Source: Chloroflexota bacterium (GTDB taxonomy: Bacteria > Chloroflexota > Limnocylindria > Limnocylindrales > CSP1-4). Taken from it: DNA of 60,707 nucleotides. Position 1 is the first letter of the stretch. Each line of letters begins with the position of its first letter. The stretch covers positions 1 to 60,707 of the forward strand of contig JADMIG010000016.1 in assembly GCA_015478725.1 (NCBI GenBank), read 5' to 3'. Under the pieces are notes generated by a model. The model made no database searches. It was not told the DNA's origin and was given only the letters and a program-made list of their open reading frames with translations. Both the position numbers and the translations under genes were made by a program. This document shows positions 38,426-46,821 of the stretch, piece by piece.

Positions 38426-39166
38426 ATGACGGGCGCGCGCGCAGTCATCGACCTCCATTGCCACACCGCCGCAAGCTTCGATTCGCTCGCCTCGCCCGAG
38501 TCCGTGGTCCGTGCGGCCTCATCCCGCGGTCTCACCCATCTCGCGATCACGGACCACGATCGGATCGATGGCGCGCTCCGGGCCCGGGACGCCGCACCGG
38601 AAGGCCTTACGGTGATCGTGGGTGAGGAGGTTCGAACCCTGGAGGGCGATCTCATCTGCGTCTTCCTCGAGCGCCCGATCCCATCCGGATCGCCCGTCCT
38701 CGAGGCGATCGCCGCCGCGCGGGATCAGGGCGGGCTCGTCGGCATCCCGCACCCGTTCGACCGACATCGCGCGTCGTTGCTCATGAACCCGGATCTGGAA
38801 GAGCTCGCCGGGTTGGTCGACTGGATCGAAACGTGGAACGCTCGACTCGTTGATCGCGGAGGCAACGAGCGGGCGGCGACGTTCGCCCGCGAGCACGGCC
38901 TGCCCGGCATCGCGGTCTCCGACGCCCATTCGATCCTCGAGGTGGGCGTGGCGCATTCGACGCTCATCGGTGATCCCTCGACATCGGCCGGCCTTCGCGA
39001 CGCCCTGCCGTCCGTATCCCACGGCTTTGGCCGCGCGCCGGACGTGGCCCGCAGCACCTCTCCGATCGGTCGGCTCATGGGGCGGGCTCGAGGCGAACAC
39101 AGAGCGCCATCACCGGATCCCACCGCGATCGGATCCACCGCGAACCGCACGGATCGCGAACAGTGA
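38426..39166 (+). CDS. PHP-domain phosphoesterase
   Basis: A 246-residue metal-dependent phosphoesterase of the PHP superfamily. [14 protein letters not shown] carries the HxH pair, [11 protein letters not shown] the third motif, and IPHPFDRHR and [12 protein letters not shown] later ligands. Members cleave small phosphoesters, for example nucleoside 3',5'-bisphosphates. The last 50 residues are Ser/Pro/Arg-rich without domain similarity. GGAGGG 13 bases before the ATG is the ribosome site. The stop overlaps the LysM gene start (GTGA), so the pair is coupled. Confidence 0.87.
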
Positions 39167-39894
39167 ACGAGGGACCGTCGCCAGGAGGCATCGTTGCGGT
39201 AGCCGACCCGATCGTCTGCCCATATCTCGGCCTCGCGGACGATCCCCGATCGCACTTCGCGTTCGCGACGGCCGCCCATCGCTGCCACAGCGCATCGCGG
39301 CCTGAACGGATCGAGGTCACCCATCAGGGCTCGTTCTGCCTAAGCCCGGACTACCCCGCCTGCGGACGCTACGTCGTTCCTGCCGGCCCCGCTCCGGGAT
39401 CGTCGGTCCTCCCCGGTCGTGCCGCGGAAGTGCCGGTCGAGGTCGTCCGCGGCCGTGTCCGATGGCGGGCTGGAGGGGCCAGGCTACGCAGGCTCGCGTT
39501 CGGTGCGGCCTTCCTCCTCGTGGGTCTCATCGCCGTCGCGATCCTCGCGGCAGGGCTCCTCCGTCATCAGGGACCGTTGTCCGCCGGTCCATCCGGCGTT
39601 TCCGGTGCGAGTCCGGCCGTCGGCCAGGCCAGTCCGGCCGTCGGCCAGGCCAGTCCCACCGCGAGCCCGCCACCGACCCCGAGTGCCTCGCTCACGCCCA
39701 CGGTCGGACCGACGACGATCCCGACCAGGACTCATCCTCCGCTGCCGACGACCCACGTCGTCGCCCGCGGCGAGACCCTCATCTCGATCGCCCGGCTGTA
39801 CGGGGTCACCGCGGCCGCCATCGAAAAGGCGAACGGGATCAAGGACCCGAATCTCATCACCGTCGGCCAACGCCTCATCATCCCGGCGCCCTGA
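39163..39894 (+). CDS. membrane LysM protein with N-terminal Cys-rich domain
   Basis: A 243-residue protein with three parts. Residues 15-70 contain four spaced cysteines (C19, C41, C59, C67) in [30 protein letters not shown] and YPACGRY, a pattern I associate with Chloroflexota LysM proteins and which may bind a metal or form disulfides. One membrane span follows (about 109-133), then a Ser/Pro/Thr-rich linker with a repeat ([14 protein letters not shown]), and a single LysM domain (about 197-242: [17 protein letters not shown]...) that binds peptidoglycan or related glycans. The Cys domain is N-terminal to the span and probably cytoplasmic. Confidence 0.85.
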
Positions 39895-40379: not shown

Positions 40380-40958
40380 ATGCGACAGTGGAACCGTTTG
40401 CGCGTCGGCATGGTGGCTGGGGTGGTCCTCTCGCTGGCCGCCGCGATCTCGGTCCTGGGCTACGCAGGCCAAGTGCCCACCACCATCACGGTGACCGGTC
40501 CCGCGGGCAATGTCTCGTGCGGCACCACGTCCAACGTCCAGGCGTTCGTCCAGGACACGGCGGGCAATCCGGACACGGATCAGAACGTCATCTGGTCCTT
40601 CGTGAGCGGCAACATCGTCGGGGACAAGATCTCCCCGACCTCCACCACCACGGACTCGCAGGGCAACACCACGACCCTGGTCACCTTCGCCTGCCCGGGC
40701 AAGGCCGGCCTGCCGGCACTGACGGCGGCCATCGTCCTTGGTCCGCTCCTCGCCGCGAGCGATCGGATCGTGACCATCCAGGCCACCGCCGGTTCGGCCT
40801 CGGGCACGATCAGCGTGACGGTCGCGGCCGGTGGCCTGCCGAGCACCTCGACCGCTCCAGCCGGCGGCACCTCCACGGTGGCGCTCCTCGCGGCCGCGTT
40901 CGCCGTGCTCTTCGGCAGCTGGATCATCCTTCGTCGCATCTCCGCCGCGCGGAGCTGA
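40380..40958 (+). CDS. secreted Ig-like protein with sorting-signal-like tail
   Basis: A 192-residue exported protein. A signal peptide or anchor covers about 1-30 (VGMVAGVVLSLAAAISVLGYAG). The middle, about 33-150, is Thr/Gly/Val-rich with strands like TITVTGPAGNVSC and WSFVSGNIVG, like a Big/invasin-type Ig repeat, with C47 and C105 placed for a disulfide. The C-terminus has LPSTSTAPAGG (153-163), a hydrophobic span (165-184) and a basic end (RRISAARS): the layout of a cell-wall sorting signal, but without the usual LPxTG or LAxTG. The sortase-family gene follows 154 bases later. Attachment to the envelope is inferred. Confidence 0.75.
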   Translation: MRQWNRLRVGMVAGVVLSLAAAISVLGYAGQVPTTITVTGPAGNVSCGTTSNVQAFVQDTAGNPDTDQNVIWSFVSGNIVGDKISPTSTTTDSQGNTTTLVTFACPGKAGLPALTAAIVLGPLLAASDRIVTIQATAGSASGTISVTVAAGGLPSTSTAPAGGTSTVALLAAAFAVLFGSWIILRRISAARS

Positions 40959-41041
40959 AGCCGCATCTCTGCCGCGCGGAGCTGAAGCCGCATCTCTGCC
41001 GCGCGGAGCTGAAGCCGCATCTCTGCCGCGCGGAGCTGACC
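40934..41041 (+). repeat. 27-bp tandem repeat, four copies, each with a stop codon
   Basis: Four copies at 40934, 40961, 40988 and 41015. The last three share CCGCATCTCTGCCGCGCGG. The first copy holds the last nine codons of the secreted protein including TGA. Because 27 is a multiple of three, every copy stays in frame and re-encodes RISAARS followed by TGA. Confidence 0.95.
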
Positions 41042-41112: not shown

Positions 41113-41835
41113 ATGGTGAGCGACGGCCGTCCCGAGTCGCATCGGCGTCGTCGCTCCGGCCGGAATGGCCGCGTTTCGCTCGGGTCGGCGCTCAGGGCCG
41201 GCAGCCCGGCTGGTCGCCGGATCGTCGCGCTCGGTGTGGTCGGCCTCATCGCCGTCTCGGCAATCGGCACCGCGATCGTCCTCTCCGGGGGGTTCGGCGG
41301 CGTGTCGGCCGGAGGGAGCGGATCCGGCGGGCCGTCACTCGGCCTGTCGGGCGGTGGGGGAGCATCGGGGGCGCCCGGCGCCACGGACACCCTCCCGCCG
41401 ATCGCCACCAGCCCTCCGACCCCGCTCCCGAGCCCGACGCCGGCCGGCATCGTCGCCACCCATATCCTCATCGCCCGCCTCGGGATCGACCTGCCGATCG
41501 TCGAAGGCGATGGGCTCGACGCTCCGCTCGGGAAGGCGGCCCACTATCCGGGTTCGGCCTGGCCGGGCGGCGGATCGAACATCTACATCTACGGCCATGC
41601 CCGGGTGGGCATGTTCCTCTCGCTCTGGCAGGCCCAGGTGGGCGACAAGGTGGTTCTCACCCTCGCGGACGGCACGAAGCGGACGTATGTCGTCCGCAAA
41701 GTCCTCCCGGATGTGCCATGGGATGACGTCTCCTACCTCAACCCCACCCCCACGGAGCAGCTGACGCTCCAGACCTCAACGTCGTACTACGCGACGGCGC
41801 CGCGGTTCGTCGTCATCGCCGTTCCCCAGTCGTGA
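41113..41835 (+). CDS. sortase-family protein lacking the catalytic cysteine
   Basis: A 240-residue membrane-anchored sortase fold. One span (about 35-58), a Gly/Ser/Pro-rich linker (59-112), then the sortase barrel: IARLGIDLPIVEGDG, SNIYIYGHARVGMF with the expected histidine H162, LTLADGTKRTYVV, and LTLQTSTSYYATAPRFVVIA. The position normally taken by Cys (in a TLxTC motif) is S222, and R231 follows at the usual distance. The whole protein has no cysteine. It may use serine or be catalytically inactive. It overlaps the DUF4012 gene (GTGA) and lies next to a candidate substrate. Confidence 0.85.
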   Translation: MVSDGRPESHRRRRSGRNGRVSLGSALRAGSPAGRRIVALGVVGLIAVSAIGTAIVLSGGFGGVSAGGSGSGGPSLGLSGGGGASGAPGATDTLPPIATSPPTPLPSPTPAGIVATHILIARLGIDLPIVEGDGLDAPLGKAAHYPGSAWPGGGSNIYIYGHARVGMFLSLWQAQVGDKVVLTLADGTKRTYVVRKVLPDVPWDDVSYLNPTPTEQLTLQTSTSYYATAPRFVVIAVPQS

Positions 41836-43829
41836 TCGACGCCCCCGAGACCTCGCACCGGAGACGTCGACACCGATCCGGCCATCGGCGCCGGAGGATC
41901 GTCGTGGCGGCCCTGGGAGGCGGCGCGGTCCTCGTCATCGTCGGGCTGTGGCTCGCCGCTACGCGCTATCTGCCGGCCCTCGATGAAGCTCGGGCACTCC
42001 GGACGGACCTCGTCGCGATGGCGGACCGCGCTCGCGCCGCGGGCGTGGAGCTGGACCGCCCGACCCTCCTCCAGCTCCAGGCGGAACTGAAGACGGCGGA
42101 TGGGCACCTGGCGGATCTGCGGGACCTGCTCGCGAGCGACCCTCTCGTGGGGCTCGCCCGATCGTTCCCGCCCACCCGGGATGCGGTCCGCGGTGCCGAC
42201 GCCGTGGTGGCGGCCGGGGGCGATCTCACCGCCGCCGCCGCGGACGGGCTCACGATCGCCGACCAGTACGTCACGATCCGCGAGGCCCAGGCGGCCACCC
42301 CCACCACCGGCGGCTCCACGCTCGCCGGCCTCGTCGAGCTCATGGCCACCTCGCAGTCCACCGTCAACGCCGCGATCGCCGCCCTGAACCAGGCCGACCA
42401 GACCCTGGCGGCGGCCCCGGCGAGCCTGCCCGGCCCGATCGCCGACGCGCGCGACGCGATGCGCGCGAAGATCGCCGAATACGGTCCGCCCCTGAAAGCC
42501 TACGCGCACGCGGCCGGGATCCTCCCGGACATGCTCGGCTGGAGCGGCCCGCGTCGCTACCTCGTCCTGACCCAGGATCCTGCCGAGCTCCGGCCCACCG
42601 GCGGGTTCATCGGGAGCTTCGGGATCATCGCCTTTGACAAGGGCAAGATCACAGAGCGCCACTTCCAGGATGTCTTCCTCCTGGACCTGCCCTGGAAGTA
42701 TCCGTTCATCACGGCCCCGGGTCCCCTCTCGCGCTACCTCCTGGGCCCGAAGCAGCCCTGGCAGCTCGCCGACTCGAACTGGTCGCCGGACTTCCCCACC
42801 AGTGCGGCGGACGCCATCCGCCTCTATCGGAACGAAGGGGGGAGCGGCCAGGTGGATGGCGTGTTCGGCCTCACCACCTACACGATCGATCAGCTGCTCA
42901 CCCTCACCGGACCCATCACGGTCCCGGAGTACCGGGTAACGATCGCGTCCGGTGAGACGACCCTCAAGACCCTCCAGCTCACCCGCGCGCCCCGGGCGCC
43001 GGATCAGAACCGCAAGGCCTTCCTCTCCACCTTCGCGGACCGCCTGTTCGGGACCCTCCTCGCCCTCTCGCCCCACAAGTGGGCGGACCTCGCCGGCCAG
43101 GCGGATCTCTTCCGGACACAGCGGCTCTTCAGCACCTGGTTCGCCGATCCAGCCGCCGAGGCGCTCTCGGTGGATGCCGGATTCGACGGTGCCGTCCTCC
43201 AGTCCGCCGGGGACTACCTCTACCCGGTCGACTCCAACGTGGCCCCGGCCTCCAAGCTCAACGCAGTGACGGACCGGGCGCTCGATCTGAGCGTCCAGCT
43301 GGACCACTACGGCAACGCCCACGACAACCTGGACATCGCCTGGACGAACCTAATCCAGACGGATCTCGGAGCACCGTACCGGGCCCTGCCCACCCTCCAG
43401 AACCTCGACGTCCTCGGGCTGTATTTTCGGCTCCTCGTTCCCGATCGGAGCCGAATCGACTCGGTCTCCGGCGGCAGCTACGAGCGCCTCACGGCACCGG
43501 CGGATATCGGGGCGGAGGCGGGCCGGGAGGTCATCGGCAATTACCTTCGCGTTCCGCCGGGCACCACCCACCTCCGCTACGCGTGGGTGAGCCCGTACGC
43601 CGCGGACAGCGCGGCGGATGGGACCGTCACGTACCGCCTCACGATCCAGAAGCAGCCGGGTCTCCGGGCGGGCCCACTTCATCTGTCGATCGCCGTGCCG
43701 CCGGGTGCCGTACTCGTGGACGCCAGCGCCGGGCTCACCGTCCGCGGTGGCACCGTCACCCTCGATGTGACCTTCGACCGCGATCTCGTCCTCGCCATCC
43801 GCTACCGGATGCCCGCCGTGACTCCGTAG
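41832..43829 (+). CDS. DUF4012 domain protein
   Basis: A 665-residue membrane-anchored protein. Basic leader, one span (about 23-44), helical region (about 45-235), then the DUF4012 core with YLVLTQDPAELRPTGGFIG, DGVFGLTTYTIDQLLTLTGP and a late beta-rich region. Such proteins occur with polysaccharide export and tyrosine-kinase genes in Chloroflexota and Actinobacteria and are presumed extracytoplasmic. Biochemical role unknown. The start GTG overlaps the sortase stop, so the two are produced together. Confidence 0.87.
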   Translation: MIDAPETSHRRRRHRSGHRRRRIVVAALGGGAVLVIVGLWLAATRYLPALDEARALRTDLVAMADRARAAGVELDRPTLLQLQAELKTADGHLADLRDLLASDPLVGLARSFPPTRDAVRGADAVVAAGGDLTAAAADGLTIADQYVTIREAQAATPTTGGSTLAGLVELMATSQSTVNAAIAALNQADQTLAAAPASLPGPIADARDAMRAKIAEYGPPLKAYAHAAGILPDMLGWSGPRRYLVLTQDPAELRPTGGFIGSFGIIAFDKGKITERHFQDVFLLDLPWKYPFITAPGPLSRYLLGPKQPWQLADSNWSPDFPTSAADAIRLYRNEGGSGQVDGVFGLTTYTIDQLLTLTGPITVPEYRVTIASGETTLKTLQLTRAPRAPDQNRKAFLSTFADRLFGTLLALSPHKWADLAGQADLFRTQRLFSTWFADPAAEALSVDAGFDGAVLQSAGDYLYPVDSNVAPASKLNAVTDRALDLSVQLDHYGNAHDNLDIAWTNLIQTDLGAPYRALPTLQNLDVLGLYFRLLVPDRSRIDSVSGGSYERLTAPADIGAEAGREVIGNYLRVPPGTTHLRYAWVSPYAADSAADGTVTYRLTIQKQPGLRAGPLHLSIAVPPGAVLVDASAGLTVRGGTVTLDVTFDRDLVLAIRYRMPAVTP

Positions 43830-43847
43830 GACGGCGCGGCAGGACGG

Positions 43848-43894
43848 TACAGTGGCCATATACTCCACCGGACGCGATCCGGATCAGAGAGGGG
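43848..43894 (+). promoter_or_regulatory. promoter and leader hairpin of the BY-kinase gene
   Basis: TACAGT (43848-43853) and TATACT (43859-43864) are possible -10 elements. CCGGA/TCCGG arms (43868-43882, 5-base loop) form a hairpin just before the purine-rich AGAGAGGGG ribosome site, so the hairpin could affect translation. Confidence 0.35.
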
Positions 43895-43906
43895 AATGCA
43901 GGCATC

Positions 43907-45577
43907 GTGGACGCCCGAGGCTACCTCCGAGTCCTCCGCAACTGGGCGTGGGTCCTCATCGCGAGCGTCCTCCTCAGCGGCGGCGCCGCCTACCTCGTGA
44001 GCAGCGCGCTGCCGAAGGCATACCAGAGCACGGCCACTCTCATCGTGGGCCAGTCGCTCCAGTCCACGAACCCGGACATCAACCAGCTCCTCGCGAGCCA
44101 GCGTCTGTCCCAGACGTATGCCAGCCTCGCCACCACGACTTCGCTCCTCGCCCGGGTGGTGGACAAGGCGGGCCTCAACGAGCCTACGGTCGTCCTCCGC
44201 AAGAACGTCAGCGTGACCGCCGCCACGGACAGCACCCTCATCACGATCACGGTGACGGACGGTGACCCGCAGCGGGCCGCGACGATCGCGAACGCCCTGG
44301 CCGGCGAGCTCATCGCCGCATCGCCGGCGATCGCCGGACGCGACGCGAGCGTCCAGAGCTTCATCGACTCGGACCTCAAGGCTACCGCGCAGCAGATTAC
44401 GGATACCCAGACCACACTCCAGCGCCTCCTTGGTCTGCCCAGCCCGACGACGGACCAGCAGAACCAGATCCAGACCCTCCAGGGGCGCCTCGTCAGCCTC
44501 CGCCAGACGTACGCCACCCTCCTTGGATCGAGCTCCAACAGCGGGGCGAATCTCCTCACCGTCGTGGATCCGGCGATTCCGGCGACCCAGCCCTCCAGCC
44601 CGCGGGTCCTCCTCAACGCGATCCTCACGGCGCTCGTCGGGCTCATCCTCGCGATCGGGATCGCCTTCCTCCTCGACTACCTCGACGACACGGTGAAGTC
44701 CGGCGATGACGTGGAGGGCCTGCTCGGCGTGCCCACCCTCGGCGCGATCATCCGGATGAAGGGCGACGGGGATCGGAGCGAGATCTACCATCTCGCCGCC
44801 CTCCTCTACCCGCGCTCACCGGCCGCGGAGGCGTATCGGACGCTCCGGACGAACGTGGAGTTCGCCTCCGTGGACGCGCCGGTCCGGACCCTCCTCGTCA
44901 CCTCGTCCATCCCGGGCGAGGGCAAGACCACGACCGCCGCCAATCTTGCCGTCGTCTTCGCCCAGGCGGGGCGGCGGACCCTCCTCCTCGATGCGGACCT
45001 TCGCAAGCCCGGAGCCCACCAGATCTTCGATCTGCCGAACGCCCAGGGGCTCACGAGCCTCCTCCGCTCCGATGAGGTGGACGTGGCCGCAGTCGCCCAG
45101 ACGACCGAGCAGGAGAACCTCACCGTCATCACCACCGGACCCCTGCCGCCGAACCCGGCAGAGCTCCTCGGATCCCAGCGGATGCGGGTGATCCTCGATC
45201 GTCTCAGCGCGGTGGCGGAGCTCGTCATCATCGACAGTCCGCCGCTCCGGGCCGTCACGGACGCGGCGATCCTCGCCTCCATCACGGACGGGACCATCTT
45301 CGTCATCGACGCCGGGCGAACCCGCCGTGGCGCCGCGGCGAGCGGTCGGGAGGCACTGGCCAAGGTGGGCGCCCGGGTCCTCGGGGTCACCCTCAATCGC
45401 CTCTCCGAGAAGGCGTCCGGCGACTATTACTACTACGACTACTACGGTGGCTACGGCGCCGACAGAGCCGCGAAGGACGGTCGGAACGGCAAGGGCAAGG
45501 GCCGGGACCGTGGCAAGGGACGCGGGAACGTTCCGCCGGTGCCGCCCTCGGTCCCGGCGGGCGTCAAACGGGAGTGA
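43907..45577 (+). CDS. polysaccharide co-polymerase / BY-type tyrosine kinase
   Basis: A 556-residue fusion of a Wzz-like chain-length domain and a cytoplasmic bacterial tyrosine kinase. Two spans (about 14-33 and 244-262) bracket an extracytoplasmic helical part. The kinase has Walker A SSIPGEGKTTTAANLA, Walker A' LLLDADLRKP and Walker B ELVIIDSPP. A C-terminal tyrosine cluster (DYYYYDYYGGYG) is the autophosphorylation site, and a basic tail follows. It controls assembly and export of the polysaccharide made by the genes downstream. Start GTG 43907 gives the usual DARGYLRVLRNWAW N-terminus. Confidence 0.93.
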   Translation: MDARGYLRVLRNWAWVLIASVLLSGGAAYLVSSALPKAYQSTATLIVGQSLQSTNPDINQLLASQRLSQTYASLATTTSLLARVVDKAGLNEPTVVLRKNVSVTAATDSTLITITVTDGDPQRAATIANALAGELIAASPAIAGRDASVQSFIDSDLKATAQQITDTQTTLQRLLGLPSPTTDQQNQIQTLQGRLVSLRQTYATLLGSSSNSGANLLTVVDPAIPATQPSSPRVLLNAILTALVGLILAIGIAFLLDYLDDTVKSGDDVEGLLGVPTLGAIIRMKGDGDRSEIYHLAALLYPRSPAAEAYRTLRTNVEFASVDAPVRTLLVTSSIPGEGKTTTAANLAVVFAQAGRRTLLLDADLRKPGAHQIFDLPNAQGLTSLLRSDEVDVAAVAQTTEQENLTVITTGPLPPNPAELLGSQRMRVILDRLSAVAELVIIDSPPLRAVTDAAILASITDGTIFVIDAGRTRRGAAASGREALAKVGARVLGVTLNRLSEKASGDYYYYDYYGGYGADRAAKDGRNGKGKGRDRGKGRGNVPPVPPSVPAGVKRE

Positions 45578-46821
45578 GCGGCGAGGGGGGTCAGCGGAGG
45601 CCGACACGGGTGCTCATCATCGGGATCAACTACCGACCGGAGCTCACGTCGGTTGGCCCGTACACCGCGGGGCTCGCCGAGCAGCTTGCCGCGCGGGGCG
45701 ACGAGGTCACCGTGCTGACCGGACTGCCGAACTATCCGGCCTGGCGGATCGCAGCAGGCACGCCGCGCGCACTCCTTCGGCGCGAGACGATCCGTGGTGT
45801 CACGGTCATCCGCGCGGCGCACTACGTCCCGGCGACCCAGTCGGCGATCAGGCGGGCGCTCTACGAGGGGACGTTCGGGCTCACCGGGCTCCTCGCGAGC
45901 CTCCGCCTGCCGCGCCCGGATGCGATCCTCGGCGTCGTCCCGAGCCTCTCCGGCGGAGTCCTTGCCCGAGCGGTCGGCGAGGTCCTGCATGTTCGGTACG
46001 GCCTCCTCTTCCAGGATCTTATGGGCCGGGCCGCCGCGCAGTCGGGGATCCCCGGCGGCGGGTCCGTCACCCGGATCACCAGCACGCTCGAGACGTGGGC
46101 CGCCGGCCGCGCCACCGCGATCGGCGTGGTTTCCGAGGCATTCCGGCCGACCCTCGCGGACATGGGCGTGGACCCGAGCCGCGTCCGCAGCGTGCCGAAC
46201 TGGGCGCGCCTCGCCGAGCCGACCCTCTCGACGGATGAGACCCGTCGGCGCTTCGGTTGGACTGACGGTCGGCAGGTGGTGCTTCACGCCGGAAACATGG
46301 GCAACAAACAGGGCCTGGAGCAGGTGGTCGCCGCTGCCCGGTTGGCAGCCGAACGTGGTGAGCCTGTGCGGTTCGTCCTCGCCGGCGGTGGCAACCAGGA
46401 GGAGGCGCTCCGCGCGATGGGCGCGCACCTGTCGACGCTGGAGTTCCTCGGGGTCCAGCCGGAGGGGCTCCACGCCAGCCTGCTGGCGGCTGCCGATGTG
46501 CTCCTGCTCTCCGAACGGCCGACCCAACTGGACATGTCATTCCCTTCGAAGCTCACGAGCTACCTCGCGGCGGGCCGGCCGATTGTGGCTGCCGTCCCGC
46601 CGGGTGGTGCCTCTGCCTGCGAGATGGAGCGCTCCCTGGCCGGACTCCTCATCCCGGCCGGCGAGCCAGAGTCGCTGCTCGCGGCCCTCGCTCGCCTCCG
46701 CTCGGAACCCGTCCTCGCGGCCGAACTCGCGGCTGCGGGCCCCGCCTATGCGGCCGTCCACCTCTCTGCGGCGGCCGGTCTGGCCCGAGCCGTCGCCCTC
46801 GTCGACGAGATCGCGGCGTGA
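45574..46821 (+). CDS. GT4 glycosyltransferase (WcaI-like)
   Basis: A 415-residue GT-B glycosyltransferase. The N-terminal domain (RVLIIGINYRPELTSVGPYTAGLAEQLAARG region) resembles WcaI of colanic acid synthesis. The C-terminal donor-binding domain has LHAGNMGNKQGLEQ and an E-rich loop (FPSKLTSYLAAGRPIVAAVP). Start GTG overlaps the kinase stop. Its own stop overlaps what was the start of a GDP-mannose dehydratase gene, now a relic. Confidence 0.9.
   Translation: MSGEGGQRRPTRVLIIGINYRPELTSVGPYTAGLAEQLAARGDEVTVLTGLPNYPAWRIAAGTPRALLRRETIRGVTVIRAAHYVPATQSAIRRALYEGTFGLTGLLASLRLPRPDAILGVVPSLSGGVLARAVGEVLHVRYGLLFQDLMGRAAAQSGIPGGGSVTRITSTLETWAAGRATAIGVVSEAFRPTLADMGVDPSRVRSVPNWARLAEPTLSTDETRRRFGWTDGRQVVLHAGNMGNKQGLEQVVAAARLAAERGEPVRFVLAGGGNQEEALRAMGAHLSTLEFLGVQPEGLHASLLAAADVLLLSERPTQLDMSFPSKLTSYLAAGRPIVAAVPPGGASACEMERSLAGLLIPAGEPESLLAALARLRSEPVLAAELAAAGPAYAAVHLSAAAGLARAVALVDEIAA

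Follow-up and report, generated by a model that had tools for sequence, protein, structure and literature searches.

Sortases attach proteins to bacterial surfaces, and the literature consistently treats them as cysteine transpeptidases, defined by their catalytic cysteine. The window analysed here (the whole stretch of 60,707 nucleotides, from the draft genome G000, 151 contigs, 96% complete) encodes a sortase-family protein in which that position is a serine. Is this an error or a single decayed gene, a protein that only binds its partner, or a sortase that works through serine?

A sortase with serine at the nucleophile position

The Pfam Sortase profile PF04203 matched residues 119-238 of the protein with an E value of 3.7e-19 and 69.2 bits, above the curated cut-off of 26.6 (table 1). 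The catalytic histidine and arginine positions are both occupied, while the catalytic cysteine of the TLxTC motif, which marks the transpeptidases of classes A-F, is replaced by Ser222. Conservation of TLQT and of the strand after it makes the alignment of the site unambiguous. The canonical triad in SaSrtA is His120-Cys184-Arg197 (PMC5148588); SrtA C184A is inactive yet keeps signal recognition (PMC5578623). The translation contains no cysteine at all, and the open reading frame, codons and Pfam match confirm the original prediction of a cysteine-free, 240-residue sortase with H162, S222 and R231.

Table 1. Features of the sortase locus in the window.
Feature	Coordinates	Strand	Basis
LysM-domain protein, conserved neighbour	39163..39894	+	synteny
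Likely substrate, secreted Ig-like (weak Big_1) protein ending in LPSTST, hydrophobic stretch and RR tail	40380..40958	+	same kind of tail in 11/11 orthologue loci
Serine-type sortase, 240 aa	41113..41835	+	open frame, ATG start; Pfam match
Sortase parts: basic N-terminus; one membrane helix (approx. residues 32-57); low-complexity linker; sortase domain (approx. 112-238)			
His162 codon CAT, conserved catalytic His position	41596..41598	+	His in all aligned copies
Ser222 codon TCA, at the sortase catalytic Cys position (LTLQT-S)	41776..41778	+	Ser in 34/35, two nearest subfamilies
Arg231 codon CGG, conserved catalytic Arg position	41803..41805	+	Arg in 35/35, two nearest subfamilies
DUF4012 protein, translationally coupled	41832..43829	+	Pfam E 7e-30; synteny
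Wzz/tyrosine-kinase-type (BY-kinase) exopolysaccharide chain-length protein	43787..45577 (start approximate)	+	synteny
Glycosyltransferase (GT4-type)	45574..46821	+	synteny

The protein scored far under every cut-off of the NCBIfam sortase classes C-F, which places it outside all named classes. It matched classes E, D and F weakly (NF033747, NF033746 and NF033748; Streptomyces coelicolor SrtE1 belongs to this set), with 33, 34 and 15 bits against cut-offs of 160, 165 and 166. It shares with them the sortase fold, a membrane anchor, histidine and arginine, and a partner with a C-terminal LPxT-type motif, and differs from them in having serine for cysteine.

An AlphaFold model of the sortase domain reached a pTM of 0.67 with a confident beta-barrel, and all 50 of the PDB matches listed by Foldseek for it were sortases, each with probability 1.00. 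The high rmsd of these matches is explained by model loop residues 30-62, which are uncertain. When the geometry of H162-S222-R231 was checked, pLDDT was below 50 around the H162 loop in both AlphaFold models. There were no significant viral fold matches, and viral contigs yielded no further sequences to deepen the alignment.

Serine and cysteine across the class

The class in question belongs to the Chloroflexota and is probably Limnocylindria (family CSP1-4). Orthologues were defined by the shared motif LTLQTSTSY..PRF together with the same gene order, giving 11 loci (the window, L033-L038, L069 and L074-L076). Serine occupies the cysteine position in 10 of the 11 orthologues and cysteine in the remaining one. 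The serine orthologues come from the window, eight other genomes from the same family (G006, G015, G019, G041, G045, G051, G055 and G101) and contig L035; several contigs of related loci are the same records as these family genomes. L035 (JARLIH010000329.1), a short contig binned as planctomycete, carries a serine sortase and its partner at approximately 76-79% domain identity and is probably a misbinned Chloroflexota contig. Serine codons vary among the orthologues (TCA, TCC and TCG). In close pairs, dN/dS was 0.10-0.18 for the sortase domain versus 0.41-0.62 for the N-terminal part, revealing purifying selection on the domain; the pair L074/L076 had too few synonymous changes for this estimate.

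Alignment of Chloroflexota sortases revealed that serine is conserved through the class, in the orthologues and in three further subfamilies, and is never exchanged for alanine, glycine or threonine. These subfamilies are SEGP (61/61, in f1), STGP with LTLQTSTG (24/24, in f4 and f5) and QGF with LTLQTSQG after a long insertion (10/10, in f3), and all four families of the class with clear sortase matches (f1, f3, f4 and f5) carry serine. When the two nearest subfamilies were pooled (35 proteins, in independent genomes), serine was present in 34, and histidine and arginine in all 35; identity was at least 95% in 33 of 127 columns, including H162, T221, S222, T223 and R231. Serine at the sortase nucleophile position is class-wide, a larger finding than first noted, and the window's own subfamily keeps histidine, arginine and sorting-signal partners alongside it.

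Beyond the class, cysteine is present in the 30 best matches of the phylum-wide search and in nearly all other copies that were read. The sole serine exception among them is L263 (754-1473; G133:C508), a sortase of canonical type (LITSYPY) whose genome also holds a close cysteine copy, L135; this looks like an independent change from cysteine to serine. Three Chloroflexota sortases outside the class (L231/L251, L233/L253 and L235/L255) are 35-45% identical to the window protein and likewise adjoin DUF4012, but retain the catalytic cysteine (LLTC, LMTC). Cysteine is the ancestral state, as judged by the outgroup and general knowledge.

A 65-row tree computed with the Ser/Cys column left out required at least three changes between serine and cysteine. 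The cysteine orthologue (L046/L075, of G050) fell inside the serine orthologues in two trees (98/90, and 95/87 in the 65-row tree, where its branch is long). Tests of constrained trees rejected neither a tree in which L046 branches outside the remaining orthologues (p-AU 0.22) nor a single origin of serine for all groups (p-AU 0.28). A one-off loss, which cysteine orthologues would have indicated, does not describe the data, since the single cysteine case among 11 nests within the serine group. Both one-off loss and sequencing error are rejected by the serine orthologues and purifying selection.

We also examined which other sortases these genomes hold. The only other one found in G000, L002 (G000:C2:147008-147379), has serine too (LQTSEGP). 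A hidden cysteine sortase in this 96% complete genome was considered and rejected: PF04203 detected none, and a cysteine-sortase profile found only the window protein again. Among the nine family genomes with a serine orthologue, G000, G019, G045 and G055 have only serine in their detected sortases, a provisional absence in draft assemblies, so that no known cysteine enzyme serves the partner there. In the other five, cysteine copies accompany the serine orthologue, of the LTLQTCLGP type in G015 and G101 and of the SMTLQTC type in G006, G041 and G051; f1 thus contains cysteine sortases of two other kinds. In G015 (L033:1273-1950, L068:6140-6817) and G101, the LTLQTCLGP gene lies approximately 3 kb upstream of the serine gene; the window lacks it.

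In the more distant serine copies, the arginine position is lysine in SEGP and absent in QGF, hinting that this site is relaxed there. Serine codons in SEGP are TCN in 47 copies and AGY in 14, and the tree calls for at least three switches between the two; because such switches cross threonine or cysteine unless two bases change together, either serine is strongly favoured or a cysteine stage was acceptable. L002 and the SEGP copies have an invariant cysteine (61/61) at the L139 column (YPLC[DN]VA), along with an extra, nearly invariant histidine at the D200 column, and their active site is possibly rearranged. Tandem SEGP sortase domains are fused in a single open frame at L011:790-2202 and L126:497-2074. 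The f3 copies L198-L207, which have the long insertion before LTLQTSQG and have lost the arginine position, in several cases adjoin genes resembling NADH-dehydrogenase subunits.

The locus and its sorting-signal partner

The stop codon of the sortase gene (TGA, 41833-41835) overlaps the GTG start of the DUF4012 gene at 41832, and the Wzz/BY-kinase and glycosyltransferase genes come next, which bears out the predicted coupling to DUF4012 and an exopolysaccharide kinase locus. Across the orthologue loci there is little deviation from the gene order PHP, LysM, sorting-signal protein, sortase, DUF4012, Wzz kinase, glycosyltransferase. DUF4012 follows the sortase in all 11, while L074 and L076 have no Wzz kinase within reach and carry PHP and LysM on the opposite strand. 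The cysteine orthologue locus L075 has the same order, with an LPRTD partner. DUF4012 proteins are found in capsular polysaccharide clusters and have been proposed as envelope auxiliaries (PMC6744442). Outside the class, DUF4012 and a cysteine sortase occur together in L255, with an LPNTS protein 100 bp further on in L251 (G285), and with a Wzz kinase and an LPPTG protein in L253. As these loci hold a cysteine enzyme in like company, the neighbours of the sortase are the same with cysteine or serine.

The gene upstream of the sortase encodes an LPxT motif, a hydrophobic stretch and a basic tail in 11/11 orthologue loci, the arrangement expected of a sortase substrate. In the window, where the gene lies directly upstream, this C-terminal sorting signal is the source of the LPSTST peptide named in the original prediction. 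The motifs are LPSTST, LPNTST, LPITST, LPRTD and LPRTS, so that the residue after threonine is serine or aspartate and not glycine. L, P and T are invariant in partners whose mean column identity is 33%. A serine after threonine fits a sortase groove, as in entry 7s4o, by its title a complex of SrtA with an LPATS peptide. A non-exhaustive search of the genome for other LPxT[ST]-type proteins, using a DNA pattern with G/C third positions and excluding the LPxTD type, returned only the window's own. Most f4 and f3 sortase copies have no sorting-signal partner nearby; the f4 copy L196 adjoins an LPSTST protein. A 27-bp tandem repeat (3.9 near-perfect copies, 40935-41039) covers both the 3' end of the partner gene and the spacer between it and the sortase gene.

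Proposed serine catalysis and its alternatives

Among the readings of this protein we favour serine catalysis, since the serine is invariant, histidine and arginine are kept, the LPxT partner is conserved, the domain is under purifying selection and its listed fold matches are all sortases. Judged from sequence, we consider it an even call that the protein works as a sortase and uses serine as its nucleophile. Ser222, in place of cysteine, would be activated by His162, with Arg231 stabilizing the substrate and transition state. The upstream partner would be cut between threonine and serine (LPST|ST), and the acyl-enzyme would be a serine ester rather than a thioester. The partner could then be handed to a cell-envelope acceptor with an amine or hydroxyl group, perhaps one connected with the exopolysaccharide that the adjacent Wzz-kinase and glycosyltransferase genes produce, with DUF4012 as a putative accessory envelope protein. 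Exchange of serine and cysteine with activity kept is known from viral 3C and chymotrypsin-like proteases, a natural swap within one fold, although that fold is another one and there cysteine stands where relatives have serine.

Several observations hint the other way. We found no natural serine sortase in the open-access literature searched. Serine is a weaker nucleophile than cysteine without added activation, and we identified no new conserved acid or base that would activate it. The arginine change in SEGP and QGF and the f4 and f3 copies without partners point in the same direction, as does the precedent of SERA5. This malarial protein has a papain-like peptide-binding domain with serine at the cysteine position and no detectable activity; changing the serine to cysteine made it active, changing it to alanine gave no phenotype, and serine is thus conserved in a non-enzyme (PMC4671257). 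Plasmodium SERA5 resembles the window sortase in having a cysteine-enzyme fold in which a whole subfamily carries serine as the nucleophile residue, but its papain-like fold is unrelated by descent and it has been shown to be non-enzymatic (PMC4671257).

SERA5 is the model for a binding-only pseudo-sortase, which would grip the LPxT tail of the partner and deliver, retain or regulate it with no covalent bond, Ser222 being retained for its hydrogen bond to the peptide in the groove. Binding alone would predict a conserved partner just as well. Against this, the two nearest subfamilies also keep His162 and Arg231 without exception, a cysteine orthologue occupies the same locus with a like partner, and four genomes have no detected cysteine sortase for the covalent step. 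We regard binding alone as the chief alternative, though less likely than not. A predicted serine transpeptidase ranks above it because partner and locus are alike with cysteine or serine and because of those four genomes.

An unlikely variant of serine catalysis is a hydrolase that would trim the LPxT tail and shed the membrane-bound partner into the exopolysaccharide matrix. Acyl-enzymes of the ester type are open to hydrolysis and the locus has Wzz and glycosyltransferase genes, but the partner bears a full three-part anchoring signal. Catalysis by a cysteine elsewhere in the protein, suggested by the invariant SEGP cysteine at the L139 column, is very improbable: it is refuted for the window protein, which has no cysteine, and eight of the 10 serine orthologues listed (window included) have none. 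An artefact or dying pseudogene, conceivable in a single draft genome of 151 contigs, has a negligible chance and is refuted by serine in orthologues of nine other assemblies and in class-wide subfamilies, by the several serine codons, by the open frame and by dN/dS.

The original prediction offered three options: a serine-based variant, a binding-only fold and an altered-chemistry subgroup within the Chloroflexota. The subgroup itself does exist, and its nearest outside relatives have cysteine. The LPxT partner favours serine catalysis but does not prove it, and binding alone keeps the lower standing given above. For the class as a whole, we tentatively propose, at slightly under even confidence, true serine transpeptidases: cysteine would have given way to serine around the time the class arose, with LPxT recognition persisting, G050 would have cysteine again or still, and both chemistries would serve the same locus.

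Thiol-reactive inhibitors and ligation tools rest on the sortase cysteine. The question reduces to an LPSTST peptide and a pair of S222A and S222C mutants, with the natural cysteine orthologue as control. If a natural serine lineage with its partner is confirmed, the sortase fold supports ester chemistry, the cysteine may be dispensable and a redox-insensitive ligase scaffold would be at hand. Should the proteins prove inactive, they would still make up a large and conserved group of pseudo-sortases associated with sorting-signal proteins, likewise without precedent in the literature searched.
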